DNA of 64,000 nt, from assembly GCF_016938855.1 (NCBI RefSeq), contig NZ_JAFHAP010000008.1:62280-126279 (forward strand), in the 5' to 3' direction. The stretch comes from Polycladomyces zharkentensis. Its GTDB lineage: Bacteria > Bacillota > Bacilli > Thermoactinomycetales > JIR-001. Position numbers and translations under genes: made by a program. Every line of letters starts with the position of its first letter. The stretch's first letter is position 1. The notes below the pieces were generated by a model, which made no database searches, had not been told where the DNA came from, and worked only from the letters and a program-made list of their open reading frames with translations. Of the stretch, positions 2,903 through 39,728 are shown one piece after another.

Positions 2903-4141
2903 ATGAAGATTTTAGTACAAAAGTTTGGCGGCACTTCGTTGGCCACCTATGAGTTGCGCCAACGGGTGATTCATCATATTCGGAACGGGTTGAACGAAGG
3001 ATATCAACTGGTCGTGGTCGTGTCGGCGATGGGACGCAAGGGGGACCCCTACGCTACCGACACCTTGTTGGATCTGATCAATCAAAACGGGCGTTCTCTC
3101 CGAGCGAGAGAACGCGATTTATTGCTGAGTTGCGGAGAAATCATCTCCGCAACCACTTTGTCAAGCATGTTGCACCGGGAAGGAATCGATAATACGGTAC
3201 TGACCGGTGGGCAAGCAGGCATCATTACCAATCATCAGCATAACAACGCTCAAATCATCACGATCAATCCCAACCGCATCCGTCAAGAGCTGAACAAGGG
3301 AAAAGTGGTCATCGTCGCCGGTTTTCAAGGAAAAACCACCGACGGCGAAATCACCACGCTTGGTCGCGGCGGGAGCGATACGACGGCCACCGCTCTGGGT
3401 GTTGCGCTGGGAGCGGAATTGGTGGATATCTTCACCGACGTGGACGGAATCATGACGGCTGATCCGCGGATCGTGGAGGATGCGGTTCCGTTGGAAACCG
3501 TCACCTATACGGAGATGTGCAATTTGGCCTTTCAGGGAGCCAAGGTGATTCACCCCCGTGCGGTGGAAATCGCCATGCAAACCAATGTACCGATTCGCGT
3601 CCGTTCGACGATGACGGATAATCCGGGGACGCTGGTCACCAGTGCCTCGGAAGTGACGCGTCTGGCCGGGGAAGTGCAGGATCGTCTGATCACCGGCATC
3701 ACGCAAGTGCCCAATGTTACGCAGATCAAAGTAAAAGCCAAGGAAGGGCAATACGATTTTCAGCTCAAGGTGTTCAAGGCGATGGCCGAAAACGGCATCA
3801 GCGTCGATTTTATCAACGTCAACCCCAGCGGCGTTGCCTATACCGTGTTTGACGAATTGGCGGATCGGGCAGAAGAAATCCTCCGATCCATCGGTTTTGA
3901 ACCGGAATTGCACCGTCATTGTGCCAAGGTCTCCGCGGTGGGCGCAGGTATCGCCGGTGTGCCGGGTGCGATGGCCAAGATGGTGGAGGCGTTGACGGAA
4001 GAGGATATTCAAATATTGCAGTCCGCCGATTCGCATACTACCTTGTGGGTGTTGGTGCGCGGGGAGGATATGGTGAAGGCGGTTCGGGCGTTGCACCGTA
4101 AATTTGAGCTGCACAACATCCACTGTCAGACGGCGGAGTGA
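2903..4141 (+). CDS. dapG: Aspartate kinase I (diaminopimelate-sensitive type)
   Basis: Aspartokinase phosphorylates aspartate at the first step of the pathway. The 412-residue product starts MKILVQKFGGTSLA, with the KFGGTS kinase motif at residues 7-12, the ATP-site segment LGRGGSDTTA near 155-165 and FTDVDGIMTADPR near 180. The C-terminal 150 residues form the paired ACT regulatory domains. Its place between asd and dapA matches B. subtilis dapG, whose isozyme is feedback-inhibited by meso-diaminopimelate. That regulatory assignment comes from synteny and not from a visible residue. AAGAAGGGA precedes the ATG. Confidence 0.93.
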   Translation: MKILVQKFGGTSLATYELRQRVIHHIRNGLNEGYQLVVVVSAMGRKGDPYATDTLLDLINQNGRSLRARERDLLLSCGEIISATTLSSMLHREGIDNTVLTGGQAGIITNHQHNNAQIITINPNRIRQELNKGKVVIVAGFQGKTTDGEITTLGRGGSDTTATALGVALGAELVDIFTDVDGIMTADPRIVEDAVPLETVTYTEMCNLAFQGAKVIHPRAVEIAMQTNVPIRVRSTMTDNPGTLVTSASEVTRLAGEVQDRLITGITQVPNVTQIKVKAKEGQYDFQLKVFKAMAENGISVDFINVNPSGVAYTVFDELADRAEEILRSIGFEPELHRHCAKVSAVGAGIAGVPGAMAKMVEALTEEDIQILQSADSHTTLWVLVRGEDMVKAVRALHRKFELHNIHCQTAE

Positions 4142-4157
4142 ACGGGGAGGGAACATC

Positions 4158-5027
4158 GTGAAATTCGGTCGATTGCTGACAGCCATGATCACGCCGTTCA
4201 CCTCGGAAGGAACCATTGATTGGCCGAAGGTGTCGGCGTTGATCGATCATTTGATCGCCACAGGTACGGAGACGATCGTCGTCGCGGGAACAACGGGAGA
4301 ATCGCCCACCCTCTCCCACGACGAGAAATTGGAGCTTTTCCGCCGTACGGTTCAACATGTGGCCGGCCGGGTCAAAGTGATGGCCAGTACAGGCAGCAAC
4401 AACACGGCGGCTTCCGTCGCATTGACGCGAGAAGCCGAACAAACGGGCGTCGACGGTGTCATGTTGGTGGCGCCGTACTACAACAAACCGTCACAGGAGG
4501 GACTGTACCGACATTTCCGGACGGTGGCCGAGGCCACATCCCTTCCGGTCATGGTATACAACATTCCGGGTCGCACCGGGGTGAATATGACCGTGGAAAC
4601 CATGGCCCGCTTGGCTGAGATCGACAATATTGTCGCTTTCAAGGAGGCAAGCGGCAATGTCATCCAGGCCGGGAAACTGGTTGAACGCGTACCCGAAGGC
4701 GTAGCGGTGTACAGCGGGGATGACGCACTCACCTTGCCGACGTTGGCGGTGGGCGGCCACGGGATCGTCAGTGTGGCCAGTCATGTTGTCGGCTCCGGTA
4801 TGCAGAAAATGATGCAATCGTATTTTGCGGGCGATGTGCAGACCGCCGCCAAACTGCATGCACGGTATCTGCCGTTGTTTGAAGGTTTGTTTATGGCCCC
4901 CAATCCGGTGCCGGTCAAATATGCTCTGTCGCTCAAAGGATTGTGCGAACCGCACGTCCGGCTGCCGCTGGTTGAACTGGATGATGAACAAAAAGAAAAA
5001 GTGAAGGCATTGGTGGAGGCGTTGTAA
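4158..5027 (+). CDS. dapA: 4-hydroxy-tetrahydrodipicolinate synthase
   Basis: DapA condenses aspartate semialdehyde with pyruvate. The 289-residue TIM-barrel protein has Thr45-Thr46 in VAGTTGES, the catalytic Tyr134 in VMVYNIPGRTG and the Schiff-base Lys162 in AFKEASGN. The start is GTG 4158 after a strong GGGGAGGG (4144-4151); an upstream in-frame ATG at 4104 lies inside dapG and lacks a ribosome site. Its product feeds both diaminopimelate synthesis and the dipicolinate synthase encoded upstream. A rho-independent terminator follows directly. Confidence 0.96.
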   Translation: MKFGRLLTAMITPFTSEGTIDWPKVSALIDHLIATGTETIVVAGTTGESPTLSHDEKLELFRRTVQHVAGRVKVMASTGSNNTAASVALTREAEQTGVDGVMLVAPYYNKPSQEGLYRHFRTVAEATSLPVMVYNIPGRTGVNMTVETMARLAEIDNIVAFKEASGNVIQAGKLVERVPEGVAVYSGDDALTLPTLAVGGHGIVSVASHVVGSGMQKMMQSYFAGDVQTAAKLHARYLPLFEGLFMAPNPVPVKYALSLKGLCEPHVRLPLVELDDEQKEKVKALVEAL

Positions 5028-34236: not shown

Positions 34237-34250
34237 CGAATAAATGTTCG
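34237..34250. promoter_or_regulatory. LexA (DinR) SOS box upstream of recA
   Basis: CGAATAAATGTTCG differs at one half-site base from the Bacillus SOS consensus CGAAC-N4-GTTCG. It lies directly upstream of the recA -35 box, as expected for damage induction. Confidence 0.85.
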
Positions 34251-34259
34251 CAAAATCTC

Positions 34260-34288
34260 TTGGCAAAGAATCCAAAACGATGTATGAT
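34260..34288 (+). promoter_or_regulatory. Sigma-A promoter of recA
   Basis: TTGGCA (34260-34265), 17-base spacer, TATGAT (34283-34288), ten bases downstream of the SOS box. Confidence 0.8.
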
Positions 34289-34328: not shown

Positions 34329-35381
34329 ATGTCCGACCGTCGTCAAGCGTTGGAAATGGCACTGAGACAGATCGAAAAGCAGTTTGGAAAAGGCTCGATC
34401 ATGCGGATGGGGGAAGCGGCCGCGACCCAGGTGGAGACGATTTCCAGCGGATCGATCGCGTTGGATATCGCGTTGGGTGTGGGCGGATATCCCCGTGGCC
34501 GGATCATTGAAGTATACGGACCGGAGTCTTCGGGTAAAACGACCGTGGCACTTCATGCAATCGCCGAAGTACAGCGCGTCGGGGGCCAAGCCGCATTTAT
34601 CGACGCCGAGCATGCGTTGGACCCGGTGTATGCCCAAAAGCTGGGTGTCAACATTGATGAACTGTTGCTGTCCCAACCGGACACGGGAGAGCAGGCGTTG
34701 GAGATCGCCGAGGCACTGGTGAGAAGCGGAGCGATCGATATCATCGTCATCGACTCGGTGGCCGCGTTGGTTCCCAAAGCGGAAATTGAAGGGGAGATGG
34801 GGGACTCCCACGTCGGTTTGCAGGCCCGTCTGATGTCGCAGGCACTGCGGAAGCTGTCCGGTGCGATCAGCAAATCGAGGACGATCGCGATTTTCATCAA
34901 CCAAATCCGGGAAAAAGTGGGGGTCATGTTCGGCAACCCGGAAACCACTCCCGGCGGTCGGGCATTGAAATTCTACTCCAGCATCCGCCTGGAAGTGCGT
35001 CGTGCGGAGACGATCAAGCAAGGAAACGAGATGGTGGGCAGCCGAACCAAGATCAAAGTGGTGAAAAACAAGGTGGCCCCGCCGTTCAAGCAAGCCGACG
35101 TGGACATCATGTACGGCGAAGGGATCTCCAAAGAAGGCAGCATTCTGGACATCGCCACCGAGTTGGACATCATCAGCAAGAGCGGCGCTTGGTATTCGTT
35201 TGAGGGTGAACGTCTGGGACAGGGACGGGAAAACGCGAAACAATTCCTCAAAGAAAACGCGGAGTTGTGCGCGAGGATCGAAGCCAGCATCCGTGCCCAC
35301 TTCGGCTTGGCCGAACCGAAAAAACCCGAAGCTGCCCAGGAGTCCGGAGATCAAGCCGAGCAACTGGAACTCGAAGCCTGA
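34329..35381 (+). CDS. recA: Recombinase RecA
   Basis: RecA forms filaments on single-stranded DNA, promotes strand exchange and triggers LexA cleavage. The 350-residue protein has Walker A GPESSGKT (64-71), [15 protein letters not shown] as Walker B and loop region, [22 protein letters not shown] and an acidic C-terminal tail. ATG 34329 after AAGGAGTG gives the family N-terminus; upstream in-frame codons run through the promoter. The SOS box and promoter above make it DNA-damage inducible. recX follows after 40 bases without a terminator. Confidence 0.98.
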
Positions 35382-35421: not shown

Positions 35422-36072
35422 ATGAAACAGGAGCCGGGCACCATTGTTCGGATTGAGCGGCAACCGGGCACAACGGCCCGATACCGTGTGTATATCGAGG
35501 GTTGCGAGCCGGTTTTCGTGCATGAGGACGTTTTGGTCAAGATGCGGTTGACCAAGGGACGTCGGGTGAACCCGGTTGAGATCGATGCGGTTTTGGAAGA
35601 GGAAGAACAAAACAAAGTGTGGCAGGCCGCACTCAAGTATTTGCAATACAAACCGCGAACAGCTTGGGAAGTGGAGCGTTATCTCCATGGAAAGGGGTTT
35701 GCTGCCCCGCATGTGCGGGCGGTGATGGACAAGCTCCATCGTTACGGTTATGTCGACGACCGCCGGTTTGCCGCCGCCTGGGTGGAACAACGACGCGGAA
35801 ATGGTCGCGGCCGTTTGCTGTTGCGAAAAGAATTGGAGCAAAAGGGGATTGCCGCCGAGATCATCGACGAGGTGTTGGCGGAGGTTCCCGAAGAAGCGGA
35901 TCGGGAGCTGGCGAGATCGCTGGCGGAAAAACGATATGAGCGGCTCCGCCGGTATCCGTGGCCGACCGTGGAACGACGGTTGGGCCATTATTTGTTGCGC
36001 AGGGGTTTTCCGCAATCACTCGTCCGCTCCATCCTGCAAAGCTATCGCGAACGTCATCGGGATTCATTGTGA
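35422..36072 (+). CDS. recX: Regulatory protein RecX
   Basis: RecX binds RecA filaments and modulates their activity. The 216-residue helical-repeat protein has typical segments AALKYLQYKPRTAWEVERYL, KLHRYGYVDDRRFAAAWVE and LARSLAEKRYERLRRYPWPT. In B. subtilis recX lies elsewhere on the chromosome, whereas here it directly follows recA and precedes the SbcD-like gene by 16 bases. This implies one SOS-controlled repair transcript. Confidence 0.9.
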   Translation: MKQEPGTIVRIERQPGTTARYRVYIEGCEPVFVHEDVLVKMRLTKGRRVNPVEIDAVLEEEEQNKVWQAALKYLQYKPRTAWEVERYLHGKGFAAPHVRAVMDKLHRYGYVDDRRFAAAWVEQRRGNGRGRLLLRKELEQKGIAAEIIDEVLAEVPEEADRELARSLAEKRYERLRRYPWPTVERRLGHYLLRRGFPQSLVRSILQSYRERHRDSL

Positions 36073-36088
36073 GAGGGGATGAGATCGG

Positions 36089-37081
36089 ATGCGGCTGTTG
36101 TATTTGACCGACACGCATATCAGGGGTACATCACCCCGCAGCCGCACGGACGACTTTCCGGCAGCCATGCGTCGCAAGCTGGAAGAAGTGATCCGGCTGG
36201 CACATGACCGCCAAGTGGATGCAGTCTTGCACGGCGGTGACTTTTTTGACCGTCCCGATCTTTCCCCGGCGGTCGTTCGTGAATTTGCCTCCTTGTTGCG
36301 CCGGTTGAAGGTGCCGCTGTATACAATCGCTGGTAATCACGACATTTACGGGCATAACCCCGATACGGTCGATCGATCGATGCTGGGGCTGTTGGATGCT
36401 TTCGGCGTTATCCGCCTGCTTCGCCCGAGGGAAACGGTCAAGCTGGAAAGAGACGGCGTCACCGTTCAGCTCAGCGGCCAACCGTTTCACCACGAGCTGG
36501 ACAAGCGGGACCCTGGATTGGATTATGCGGTGAACAACGTGACAGGTGCCGATTTTTGCGTACATATGGTTCACGGCATGGCGGTGGACCGCCACCTGCC
36601 CGAAGGCGTACCGCATACGTTATTGGATCATCTGTGGTTTGAATCGGTGGACGTCCTGCTCACCGGGCACTATCATGCAGGGTTTCCCGTTCAACGTCGT
36701 GAGGGACGCTTGATTGTGAATCCCGGTGCCTTGGCTCGCATCAACAACCATCCTTCAGAGATGCGACGTCAACCACAAGTCGCTTTGCTCACGTTTGCCG
36801 GATCGGTACAGGTGGAACTCATCCCCTTGCAATGTGCGGCCAAGGGAACGGATGTGCTGGACCGTTCTTATCTGGAACAAGCCGCCTACCGGGAGGAGAA
36901 ATTGGCAGCCTTTGTCCGGCAGGTACGTGCCGCCGGTGAATTTCAGGGGATCGACGTGATCGACATCATTGAGGAAATCGCCCGTTTGGAAGGAATTGAA
37001 CCGGATGTCAAACACGAGGCGATGCGACGCATCGCCGTCGTGCAGGAGCGGTTGGGGACGGAAGGGGGACGGGAGCGTTGA
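36089..37081 (+). CDS. SbcD/Mre11-like metallophosphoesterase
   Basis: The 330-residue calcineurin-like nuclease has the phosphodiesterase motifs in order: Asp8-x-His10 (YLTDTH), Gly-Gly-Asp51 (HGGDFFDRPD), Gly-Asn83-His84-Asp85 (AGNHDIYGH), a histidine in HMVHG near residue 154 and GHYHAG near 194. This is the SbcD/Mre11 arrangement. It lacks the length of a full SbcD (about 390) at its C-terminus, where the ATPase-contacting region usually lies, but residues 250-320 are helical and charged. Its stop overlaps the TTG start of the ATPase gene, strongly suggesting an SbcCD-like nuclease complex. Confidence 0.85.
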   Translation: MRLLYLTDTHIRGTSPRSRTDDFPAAMRRKLEEVIRLAHDRQVDAVLHGGDFFDRPDLSPAVVREFASLLRRLKVPLYTIAGNHDIYGHNPDTVDRSMLGLLDAFGVIRLLRPRETVKLERDGVTVQLSGQPFHHELDKRDPGLDYAVNNVTGADFCVHMVHGMAVDRHLPEGVPHTLLDHLWFESVDVLLTGHYHAGFPVQRREGRLIVNPGALARINNHPSEMRRQPQVALLTFAGSVQVELIPLQCAAKGTDVLDRSYLEQAAYREEKLAAFVRQVRAAGEFQGIDVIDIIEEIARLEGIEPDVKHEAMRRIAVVQERLGTEGGRER

Positions 37082-38565
37082 AGCGGCTGAAGCGTCTGTA
37101 CATCGAAAATTTCCAGTCGCACGAGCGGACGGAAATTCAATTTGCCGATGGACTCAATGTGCTGATCGGTCCGTCGGACAGCGGGAAGAGTGCCATCTTG
37201 CGCGCGTTGCGCTGGGTCTTGTTCAATCAGCCGCGAGGGACGGATTATATTCGAATCGGAGCGGACAAATGCCGTGTCGTCCTGACGATGTCCGACGGAA
37301 CGGAAATCGTCCGGGAACGTTCAGCTTCCGTCAACCGTTACATCATCCGGACCCCGGACGGACAGGAACGGGTATTTGAAGGATTCGGCAGCGGTGTGCC
37401 GCAGGAAGTGCTGGATGCCCACAACATGCATCCGGTCCGGTTGGACAAGGACTGGGAACTGTCCGCCCAATTCGGCAGTCAATTGGAAAGTCCGTTTTTG
37501 TTGGCCGAGACGGGCAGTATACGCGCCAAATCCATCGGGCGGATCAGCGGTGCCCACATCATGGACATCGCCTTGCGTGATACGATGCGGGACCGGCAAT
37601 CGCTGGCTTCCGAGATGAAACACGTGGAGCAGGAAGCGACACGCCTGACGGAAGCGTTGAAGCCGTACGAAGACCTTCCCCGACTGGGACGGGAATTGGA
37701 GGAGTCGGAATCGCTTTATCAGGCGGCTGTGCAAATGGAGGAGCGTCTGTCCCGTCTCAAGGCTCTGCTGCAAAAATGGCGGGATTGCCGGGAGCAAATC
37801 GCGACCCAGCGAAACATTCTCCAACGGTTGCGACAGTTGCCGGAGGCGGAGGCGAAGATTTCCTCCCTGCAGGCGGACGGTCAACGTCTGATATTGTTGC
37901 GCCGCCGTCTGGAGGAGTATCGAAAGGGGCAACGGGAGCAGCGAGCATGCCGCCATACGCTCACAATGACCGAGAAGCTGGTGGAGGCAGCGACAGCCCT
38001 CGACAACTTGGAACACCGTCGCGCGCGTCTGCAAACGCTGAGACGGTTGCACGCGTTGTATCATACCTGTAAAAATGAGCAAGCGCGATATCAACTGCGT
38101 CTCCGTCTGACCGACGGTGTCGATCTGGTGGCGGCAGTCGTCTCCCGGCTGGATACCAAACGGGTGATTCACGACCGCATGTTGCGCCTGAAGCCGCGTC
38201 TGCACCGTCTTCGCCAGGAACGCGAGCGCATCGCTCGGACGTTGGAACGAACACGAACCCTGGCTGAAGCGATGCGGGCCGTGACTGCCGCCGAGGAAGC
38301 GTATGGGCGGTGGAGCGTTCTGACGCAGTCCGCACAACGGCTCGGCGATTGCCGCAAGCGGCTGGAGGATGGGCGGAAGTACCTGAAGGCCAATGCCGAG
38401 GCGATCGAAGCCAACACCTCGCAAATGTTGCGTCTGTTTCAACAGCTTGGCCGCTGTCCGACTTGCGGTTCCCCCGTCGACGGTTCCGTGCTTCAACACA
38501 TTTTGGCCGAAGTGCGAGGAGGGGTTTCCCATGCAGCAGTTGGAAGAGAAAATCAAAGAGATTAA
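37078..38565 (+). CDS. SbcC/Rad50-like ATPase, N-terminal half with zinc hook
   Basis: The 495-residue protein starts LKRLYIENFQSHERTEIQFA with Walker A GPSDSGKSA (31-39), as in SMC/SbcC heads. Residues about 170-450 are charged, heptad-like coiled coil. Near the C-terminus lies Cys460-Pro-Thr-Cys463, a zinc-hook CxxC. No signature motif or Walker B is present, so it cannot form a complete head alone. Both missing parts are in the ORF two genes downstream. TTG 37078 overlaps the phosphoesterase stop. Its last 35 bases overlap the next ORF, which has its own ribosome site. Confidence 0.85.
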   Translation: MKRLKRLYIENFQSHERTEIQFADGLNVLIGPSDSGKSAILRALRWVLFNQPRGTDYIRIGADKCRVVLTMSDGTEIVRERSASVNRYIIRTPDGQERVFEGFGSGVPQEVLDAHNMHPVRLDKDWELSAQFGSQLESPFLLAETGSIRAKSIGRISGAHIMDIALRDTMRDRQSLASEMKHVEQEATRLTEALKPYEDLPRLGRELEESESLYQAAVQMEERLSRLKALLQKWRDCREQIATQRNILQRLRQLPEAEAKISSLQADGQRLILLRRRLEEYRKGQREQRACRHTLTMTEKLVEAATALDNLEHRRARLQTLRRLHALYHTCKNEQARYQLRLRLTDGVDLVAAVVSRLDTKRVIHDRMLRLKPRLHRLRQERERIARTLERTRTLAEAMRAVTAAEEAYGRWSVLTQSAQRLGDCRKRLEDGRKYLKANAEAIEANTSQMLRLFQQLGRCPTCGSPVDGSVLQHILAEVRGGVSHAAVGRENQRD

Positions 38566-38782
38566 AACCGCCCTGGAAAAAGCGAAAGATCTTCGCTATA
38601 AAGCGGAAGCCCGCTTGGAGCAACTGGAGAAGCAAGAGGAGGAAATCCTGCAGGAATTGCAGGAGCTGGGAGTGGAACCTTCCCGTTTGGAAGAGGAGAT
38701 TGCCCGTTTGGAAGAGGAGATCGAACGCCACTTGCAGGAAGCATGGGAGAAACTGCCCCAGGGGCTGATTCAGGGATCATGA
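38531..38782 (+). CDS. Small coiled-coil protein between the two SbcC-like halves
   Basis: The 83-residue product is almost entirely heptad-repeat coiled coil rich in Glu, Lys and Leu (AEARLEQLEKQEEEILQELQ, then RLEEEIARLEEEIERHL). ATG 38531 is preceded by GAGGAGGGG (38516-38524). It overlaps the N-half gene by 35 bases and the C-half gene by four (ATGA), so all three are translationally coupled. It may bridge or extend the coiled-coil arm between the hook and the second head half. I know no named family for it. Confidence 0.75.
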   Translation: MQQLEEKIKEIKTALEKAKDLRYKAEARLEQLEKQEEEILQELQELGVEPSRLEEEIARLEEEIERHLQEAWEKLPQGLIQGS

Positions 38783-39456
38783 CCCGTTCCGAAAAGTTGG
38801 CGCGTTTGCGGGAGGCAATCGCAGCCGCACGCGCCGAATGGTTGAAACGCGAAGCCAAGCGGGAGGAGCTGGATCGGCTCCGCCAACAGGCGCAAGCCCG
38901 GTTGGAAGAGTTGAACAAGCAACTGGATCTGTTCGACAAGGTGCGCGTTTTGTTGCAAACCTCTTCCGAATATGCACGGGAGCAGGCCAAACAACAGATG
39001 GAGAGTCTGGTCACCAATGCATTGCAATATGTGTTTGGTTCTGCTTTTCGCTTTGAAATCGAATTGTCCGAACACGGAGGAAAACCGGCTGCCGAATTTT
39101 ACGTCGTCACCGAATGGGATGGCCGTACCATCCGTACCAAGCCGCAAGACGCCCGCGGCGGCGGCGTGGTGGACATCACTTCCCTGGCATTGCGCGTAGC
39201 CATGATTGAAACGTTCCGGCCACGTCTGGACGGACCGTTGATTCTGGATGAACCCGGCAAGCATGTGAGTGCCGAATATGTGATGCCGATGGTGGAGTTT
39301 TTGAAGTCCGCGGGCGAAATGTTTGATCGACAGATCATTTTGGTCACGCATAACCCCCATTTGATTGAAGGAGCAGACCAAGCCTTCCATGTTCGCCTCC
39401 AATCCGGGAAAACGGAAGTTATTCCCATCTCCCGCCTTGACAATGGTACAGGCTAA
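38779..39456 (+). CDS. SbcC/Rad50-like ATPase, C-terminal half
   Basis: The 225-residue protein has a coiled-coil start (residues 1-75), then the head lobe: a signature-like segment ARGGGVVDITSLALRVAM (126-143), Walker B LILDEP (154-159, Glu158), and a switch His in LVTHNPHLIEGAD (His191). It has no Walker A, making it the exact complement of the ORF at 37078. The canonical LSGGE-type signature is replaced by RGGGVVD. ATG 38779 overlaps the upstream stop. It ends the operon that began at recA. Confidence 0.83.
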   Translation: MTRSEKLARLREAIAAARAEWLKREAKREELDRLRQQAQARLEELNKQLDLFDKVRVLLQTSSEYAREQAKQQMESLVTNALQYVFGSAFRFEIELSEHGGKPAAEFYVVTEWDGRTIRTKPQDARGGGVVDITSLALRVAMIETFRPRLDGPLILDEPGKHVSAEYVMPMVEFLKSAGEMFDRQIILVTHNPHLIEGADQAFHVRLQSGKTEVIPISRLDNGTG

Positions 39457-39699: not shown

Positions 39700-39728
39700 A
39701 AGACCGAAGTCCATCGGTCTTGTTTTTT
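39700..39728 (+). terminator. Terminator/attenuator immediately upstream of the rny ribosome site
   Basis: AAGACCGA (39700-39707) pairs with TCGGTCTT (39714-39721) and is followed by G and six T residues. It lies only 12 bases before AAGGAGGTGG of rny. Confidence 0.7.

Follow-up and report, generated by a model that had tools for sequence, protein, structure and literature searches.

A probable three-part form of the Rad50/SbcC ATPase encoded beside recA in Polycladomyces zharkentensis and other Bacillota

Mre11-Rad50 is among the most conserved repair machines. In canonical Rad50, the arm consists of two paired strands that have to match, and, to our knowledge, the ATPase has been treated as necessarily one chain. 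In structures of Pyrococcus furiosus Rad50 (1f2u and 9a9j), separate N- and C-terminal chains form one head, a split that we take to be a laboratory construct. Fusion proteins that join the Mre11 nuclease to the Rad50 ATPase have been described in plasmids and phages (Yoshida et al. 2011, PMC3175470), and in Staphylococcus aureus an sbcD-sbcC operon is controlled by LexA (PMC11442139). Here we describe a locus in a 64,000-nucleotide stretch of the Polycladomyces zharkentensis genome (contig NZ_JAFHAP010000008.1, positions 62,280 to 126,279; hereafter, the window). Between recX and rny, it contains four consecutive open reading frames (ORFs), which we denote D, A, B, and C, for an SbcD/Mre11-type nuclease, the N-terminal half of a Rad50/SbcC-like ATPase with an arm and a zinc hook, a small coil protein, and the C-terminal half of the ATPase, respectively. 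An earlier note, made from the letters of the window, had pointed out these ORFs inside the recA cluster, and the gene layout and the coordinates agree with that description. We consider it very probable that D, A, B, and C make up a heteromeric, SOS-linked complex of the Mre11-Rad50 type that stands in for SbcCD.

The D-A-B-C system has in common with SbcCD and Mre11-Rad50 the nuclease motifs, the head folds, the Walker A and B motifs, the H-loop, the CPxC hook, and the adjoining nuclease and ATPase genes. It differs in that the ATPase is divided among three chains instead of one, the hook lies near a C-terminus, the signature is GGGV in place of SGGE, the arm strands are unequal and contain a 47-residue module, and D falls below the SbcD cut-off. 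D matches Metallophos (E = 5e-13) and the SbcD-like phrog_100 (E = 1.5e-17), and its Mre11-type metal-binding residues (D8, H10, D51, N83, H84, H162, H194, and H196) are kept in 96-100% of 161 homologues. A matches AAA_23 (E = 3.6e-17) and phrog_16465 (E = 6e-72), B matches phrog_18563 (E = 8e-8), and C matches phrog_15167 (E = 3e-68); PHROGs has no curated cut-off. The three phage families are already separate in PHROGs, where they are labelled only as exonuclease, unknown, and ATPase, respectively.

The two parts of the ATPase fit different parts of Rad50. In profile searches, A retrieves N-halves of Rad50, and the top matches of C are Rad50 C-halves (E = 2e-13). Residues 2-188 of A match the N half of Rad50 in 9a9j_A (Z = 13.0). 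The model of C, with a predicted local distance difference test (pLDDT) score of 93.8, matches 1f2u_B over 143 residues (Z = 15.0, root-mean-square deviation 2.4), and residues 42-218 correspond to the Rad50 C half in 9a9j_B. A contains Walker A and lacks Walker B, and C contains Walker B and lacks Walker A. Among 172 sequences of C, the Walker B residues D157 and E158 and the H-loop His191 are kept in 100%, G127-G129 of the signature in 99%, and D132 in 97%. This signature aligns to SGGE of Rad50, with glycine replacing serine, so the altered motif RGGGVVD, reported in the earlier note, is a family-wide feature and not a local oddity. By sequence and by structural model, A and C map to complementary halves of a Rad50 head. 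The P. furiosus structures, whose chains A and B correspond to A and C of the present locus, respectively, indicate that a two-chain head is physically possible; here, however, the split is genomic.

In 39 genomes of the order Thermoactinomycetales, apart from that of the window, each of D, A, B, and C has its own gene, and in nearly every case the set lies between recX and rny; in one of these genomes, a low-completeness metagenome-assembled genome, A is additionally interrupted. Two genomes of family f2 of the order are without the split system, and in the single-contig genome G003 of that family, recX adjoins rny and the site is empty. The ratio of nonsynonymous to synonymous substitution rates (dN/dS) relative to congeners is 0.06-0.08 for D, 0.13-0.16 for A, about 0.02 for B, and 0.04 for C, that is, purifying selection is strongest on B, in which P50 is kept in 100% and P76 in 95% of 162 homologues. 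Since the genes are separate in 39 other genomes and evolve under low dN/dS, the split cannot be put down to a sequencing error, in line with the proposal of the earlier note that it evolved and is not a recent frameshift. The spacing from A to B ranges from -197 to +80 bases among genomes of the order, with the length of B and C near-constant, and this variability of the junction counts against a programmed frameshift that would join A and B.

When named genomes were scanned with C, 173 relatives came up, and the locus context was taken from the best 80, of which 70 lie beside recA and/or rny. The hosts of these linked loci include alkaliphilic Bacillaceae, Tissierellia and Peptoniphilus, Thermosediminibacter, Halanaerobiia, Natroniella, and others. 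The mobile forms, in phages and plasmids, are arranged either as A-B-C-D or as a D+A fusion with B and C behind it, and in a midpoint-rooted tree of D+A+C, the recA-linked forms make up one clade and the mobile forms another. Neither A-B nor B-C fusions were detected among the relatives examined, and a single-chain A-B-C was likewise not found. In contrast, D and A are fused in some plasmids and one phage, which fits a single functional unit. In family f69 (L214, L215, and L216, that is, G099, G387, and G329), a single protein of 690-700 amino acids (aa) combines D, A, and C without the arm, the hook, or B, which argues for D, A, and C being parts of one unit. In both f69 genomes checked, the fusion gene is located away from recA.

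The mobile forms bear on the fusions described in 2011. On a 218,948-bp phage contig (L204, 2632-6669), B and C are found downstream of a D+A fusion. In the accessible text of Yoshida et al. 2011 (PMC3175470), one nucleoside triphosphatase (NTPase) segment is unobserved in the fusions of Bacillus phage 0305phi8-36 and Anaerostipes and, unlike in L204 and the plasmids analysed here, is not reported as a separate downstream gene; nor does that text describe the three-part chromosomal form. As far as that text goes, the D+A-B-C loci offer an explanation for the missing segment. More generally, no account of SbcC or Rad50 as a split protein was found in the open-licence literature, and the impression of the earlier note that the arrangement is undescribed holds within that literature.

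Several further variants were encountered among the relatives. In distant viral contigs (L209-L213), A is 306-364 aa long with a terminal CxxC and is accompanied by D and C, usually downstream of a RecA-like gene; B was not detectable beside A and C in these phages. In phage vB_BboS-125 (L082), A and B are separated by an ORF with an AP2 domain that may encode a homing endonuclease (4119-4691). In the single drafts of Caloramator australicus (L140), Halalkalibacter akibai (L114), and G041 (L073), A is interrupted or hookless, so that these are either natural knock-outs or assembly errors. A viral scan with the plasmid-type C (A3) gave no relatives.

The hook and the arm depart from the canonical plan. 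The hook residues C460, P461, and C463 are present in 98% of 153 sequences of A, and residues 412-479 match the P. furiosus Rad50 hook structures 1l8d and 6zff. CPxC occurs in 114 of the 115 A proteins longer than 400 aa; its distance to the C-terminus is 5-32 aa in these proteins and 17-89 aa among genomes of the order. The earlier note had placed the division at the apex of the hook; the split indeed is at the hook, but lies just past the apex, and its two sides are not equal halves of the arm. The hydrophobicity of the A arm, averaged over 76 proteins, shows a 47-residue periodicity (autocorrelation 0.71 at lag 47 and 0.65 at lag 94), and none of 2000 heptad shuffles reached the 47-residue value. 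The distance between the N-lobe and the hook falls into classes of 262-263, 306-312, 356-358, and 451 residues, with steps of 47, 47, and 94. B and C stay constant in length while the A arm ranges from 263 to 451 residues; together, they provide about 140 residues of coil, where the share of C was taken from helix 3-86 of its model, minus the part within the lobe. An arm that is quantised by 47 residues with B and C constant cannot be a canonical equal-armed coil. A meander, in which each 47-aa helix turns back, is disfavoured because gain of a single antiparallel-helix unit would reverse the direction of the hook, which favours a rod; the geometry of the arm in the AF2 model is uncertain (predicted template modelling score 0.38). 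The A arm might be a rod of 47-residue modules that are gained and lost whole, much of it unpaired with B and C and completed either by A-A arm pairing up to the terminal hook or by several copies of B along the repeats, so that arm length would be free to evolve while the other strand stays as it is; we regard the chances of this model as about even.

The earlier note envisaged a nuclease distinct from, and additional to, the ordinary sbcCD. A search of the genome of the window with the profiles TIGR00618, TIGR00619, and PF13558 found no canonical SbcC or SbcD above the cut-off. The lone match to an SbcC profile (a 1233-residue frame, 19 bits) is probably an SMC protein, and the second match to an SbcD profile (C2:117976, 30.9 bits) is probably YhaO-like. 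TIGR00618 has no match at the locus, and its cut-off is exceeded in only 1 of 14 control genomes (by implication, this one is not Bacillus subtilis). No split carrier of the order encodes an SbcD above the cut-off; such an SbcD is present in G008 of family f2. In G003, of the same family, the split system is missing and no SbcD passes the cut-off. Across 398 evenly sampled Bacillota genomes, with C and canonical SbcD as the markers, 65 contain C, 164 contain SbcD, and 2 contain both, compared to 26.8 expected (Fisher p = 3e-14, a value inflated by shared ancestry, which the test ignores). Families f33, f41, f43, f45, and f131 each include both split carriers and SbcD carriers, and one of the two double carriers (G407) has the phage-type order A-B-C-D. 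Given that no canonical SbcC or SbcD passes the cut-off in this genome and that the two systems avoid each other across the sample, the split system looks like a replacement for SbcCD, contrary to the idea of an additional nuclease.

The regulatory context of the locus was also compared (Table 1). D-A-B-C lies downstream of a LexA-type box in front of recA, as the earlier note had recognised, and the box is kept in relatives: a LexA-type box with 9 of 10 matches precedes recA in 71 of the 105 loci checked, at a distance of 87-102 nt in the order members listed. LexA-type boxes are not enriched over the whole window. Co-transcription of the four genes with recA is probable, and the junctions D/A, A/B, and B/C overlap by 4, 35, and 4 bases, which, together with a ribosome site of its own for B, bears out the coupling noticed earlier. 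Because S. aureus sbcDC is already known to be under LexA control (PMC11442139), as the box predicts for the present locus, SOS linkage alone is not new; unlike this locus, the S. aureus operon encodes a canonical SbcC, has its own promoter, and lies outside the recA cluster.

Table 1. Features of the D-A-B-C locus and its surroundings (positions in the window)
Feature	Position	Strand	Remarks
LexA (SOS) box CGAATAAATGTTCG	34237..34250	+	one mismatch to CGAAC-N4-GTTCG
Promoter-like TTGGCA-17-TATGAT, right after the LexA box	34260..34288	+	consensus match only
recA	34329..35381	+	neighbour kept in relatives
recX	35422..36072	+	ORF list and genomes of the order
D, SbcD/Mre11-type metallophosphoesterase, 330 aa	36089..37081	+	
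A, putative N-terminal half of Rad50/SbcC ATPase with arm and zinc hook, 495 aa, TTG start	37078..38565	+	
Walker A GPSDSGKS (A31-38)	37168..37191	+	G31, G36, and K37 invariant in 76 sequences
Arm of A, 47-residue repeat units	37573..38418	+	hydrophobicity autocorrelation and length classes
CPTC zinc hook (Cys460, Cys463), near C-terminus of A	38455..38466	+	
B, two-helix coil subunit, 83 aa	38531..38782	+	ribosome site gaggagggg ahead of ATG
C, putative C-terminal half of Rad50/SbcC ATPase, 225 aa	38779..39456	+	
Altered ATP-binding cassette (ABC) signature RGGGVVD (C126-132)	39154..39174	+	
Walker B PLILDE (C153-158)	39235..39252	+	
H-loop His191 of C	39349..39351	+	
Terminator-like hairpin ahead of rny	39700..39721	+	consensus match only

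In the proposed complex, the three polypeptides A, B, and C would take the place of the Rad50/SbcC chain in DNA-end processing. One ABC ATPase head would consist of the N-lobe contributed by A and the C-lobe contributed by C, and two such heads would dimerise around ATP on a dimer of the D nuclease. The zinc hook on the long modular arm of A would join two arms or two complexes, with B as a conserved arm subunit beside C. After DNA damage, such a complex may take over from canonical SbcCD the opening of hairpins and of blocked ends. Apart from the shared ancestry that the Fisher test ignores, several points weigh against this proposal: D scores 38.4 bits with TIGR00619, below the curated cut-off of 77.65; the change from serine to glycine in the signature may alter ATP-driven head engagement; control by LexA and read-through of transcription from recA as far as C are predicted from sequence; and the formation of the complex, its stoichiometry, its nuclease activity, and its SOS induction are likewise predictions.

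Among the alternative explanations, decay of one sbcC gene, recently broken in this strain by frameshifts, or an assembly error, seems extremely improbable: small indels could yield the 4-base overlaps, and A is interrupted in isolated draft relatives (G041 and L114), but the three-part split recurs in some 160 loci of Bacillota and phages with widely different A-to-B spacing, under strong purifying selection, and no single-chain A-B-C form was found. Also improbable, although less so, is that A, B, and C do not share a head. In that case, C would be a RecF/SMC-like ATPase partner in its own right, and A would bind another subunit. The best Foldseek match of C, the C-half of an SMC head, would suit this explanation; it is opposed by the complementary lack of Walker B in A and of Walker A in C, the preference of the C profile for Rad50, the near-constant linkage of the genes, and the D+A+C fusion of the f69 genomes.

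A somewhat better, if still unlikely, alternative is that the same complex performs a different job, either as a phage-derived nuclease of recombination or replication, similar to gp46/47 of T4, or as a defence nuclease. Phages and phage-like plasmids do carry A-B-C-D, and A and C weakly match defence SMC-like ATPases, such as LmuB; these PADLOC matches, however, mostly cover generic ATPase parts. The chromosomal form makes up a single clade that, unlike mobile defence islands, has a fixed place next to recA and rny in several classes, and its mutual exclusion with SbcD argues for the role of an SbcCD substitute.

Roughly a sixth of the Bacillota genomes surveyed have the split form, almost always in the absence of SbcCD, and its persistence as a stable heteromeric form suggests that continuity of the chain through the hook is dispensable. 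In this form, the head halves, the arm, and the hook would be open to separate mixing and mutation. The quantised arm could allow the long-open question of what the length of the arm does to be tested directly, by gain and loss of 47-residue units, and the armless D+A+C fusion of one family provides a natural test of the purpose of the arm. The finding bears on how Mre11-Rad50 machines can be assembled, in a form that many Gram-positive bacteria and their phages have retained in the absence of the ordinary version.

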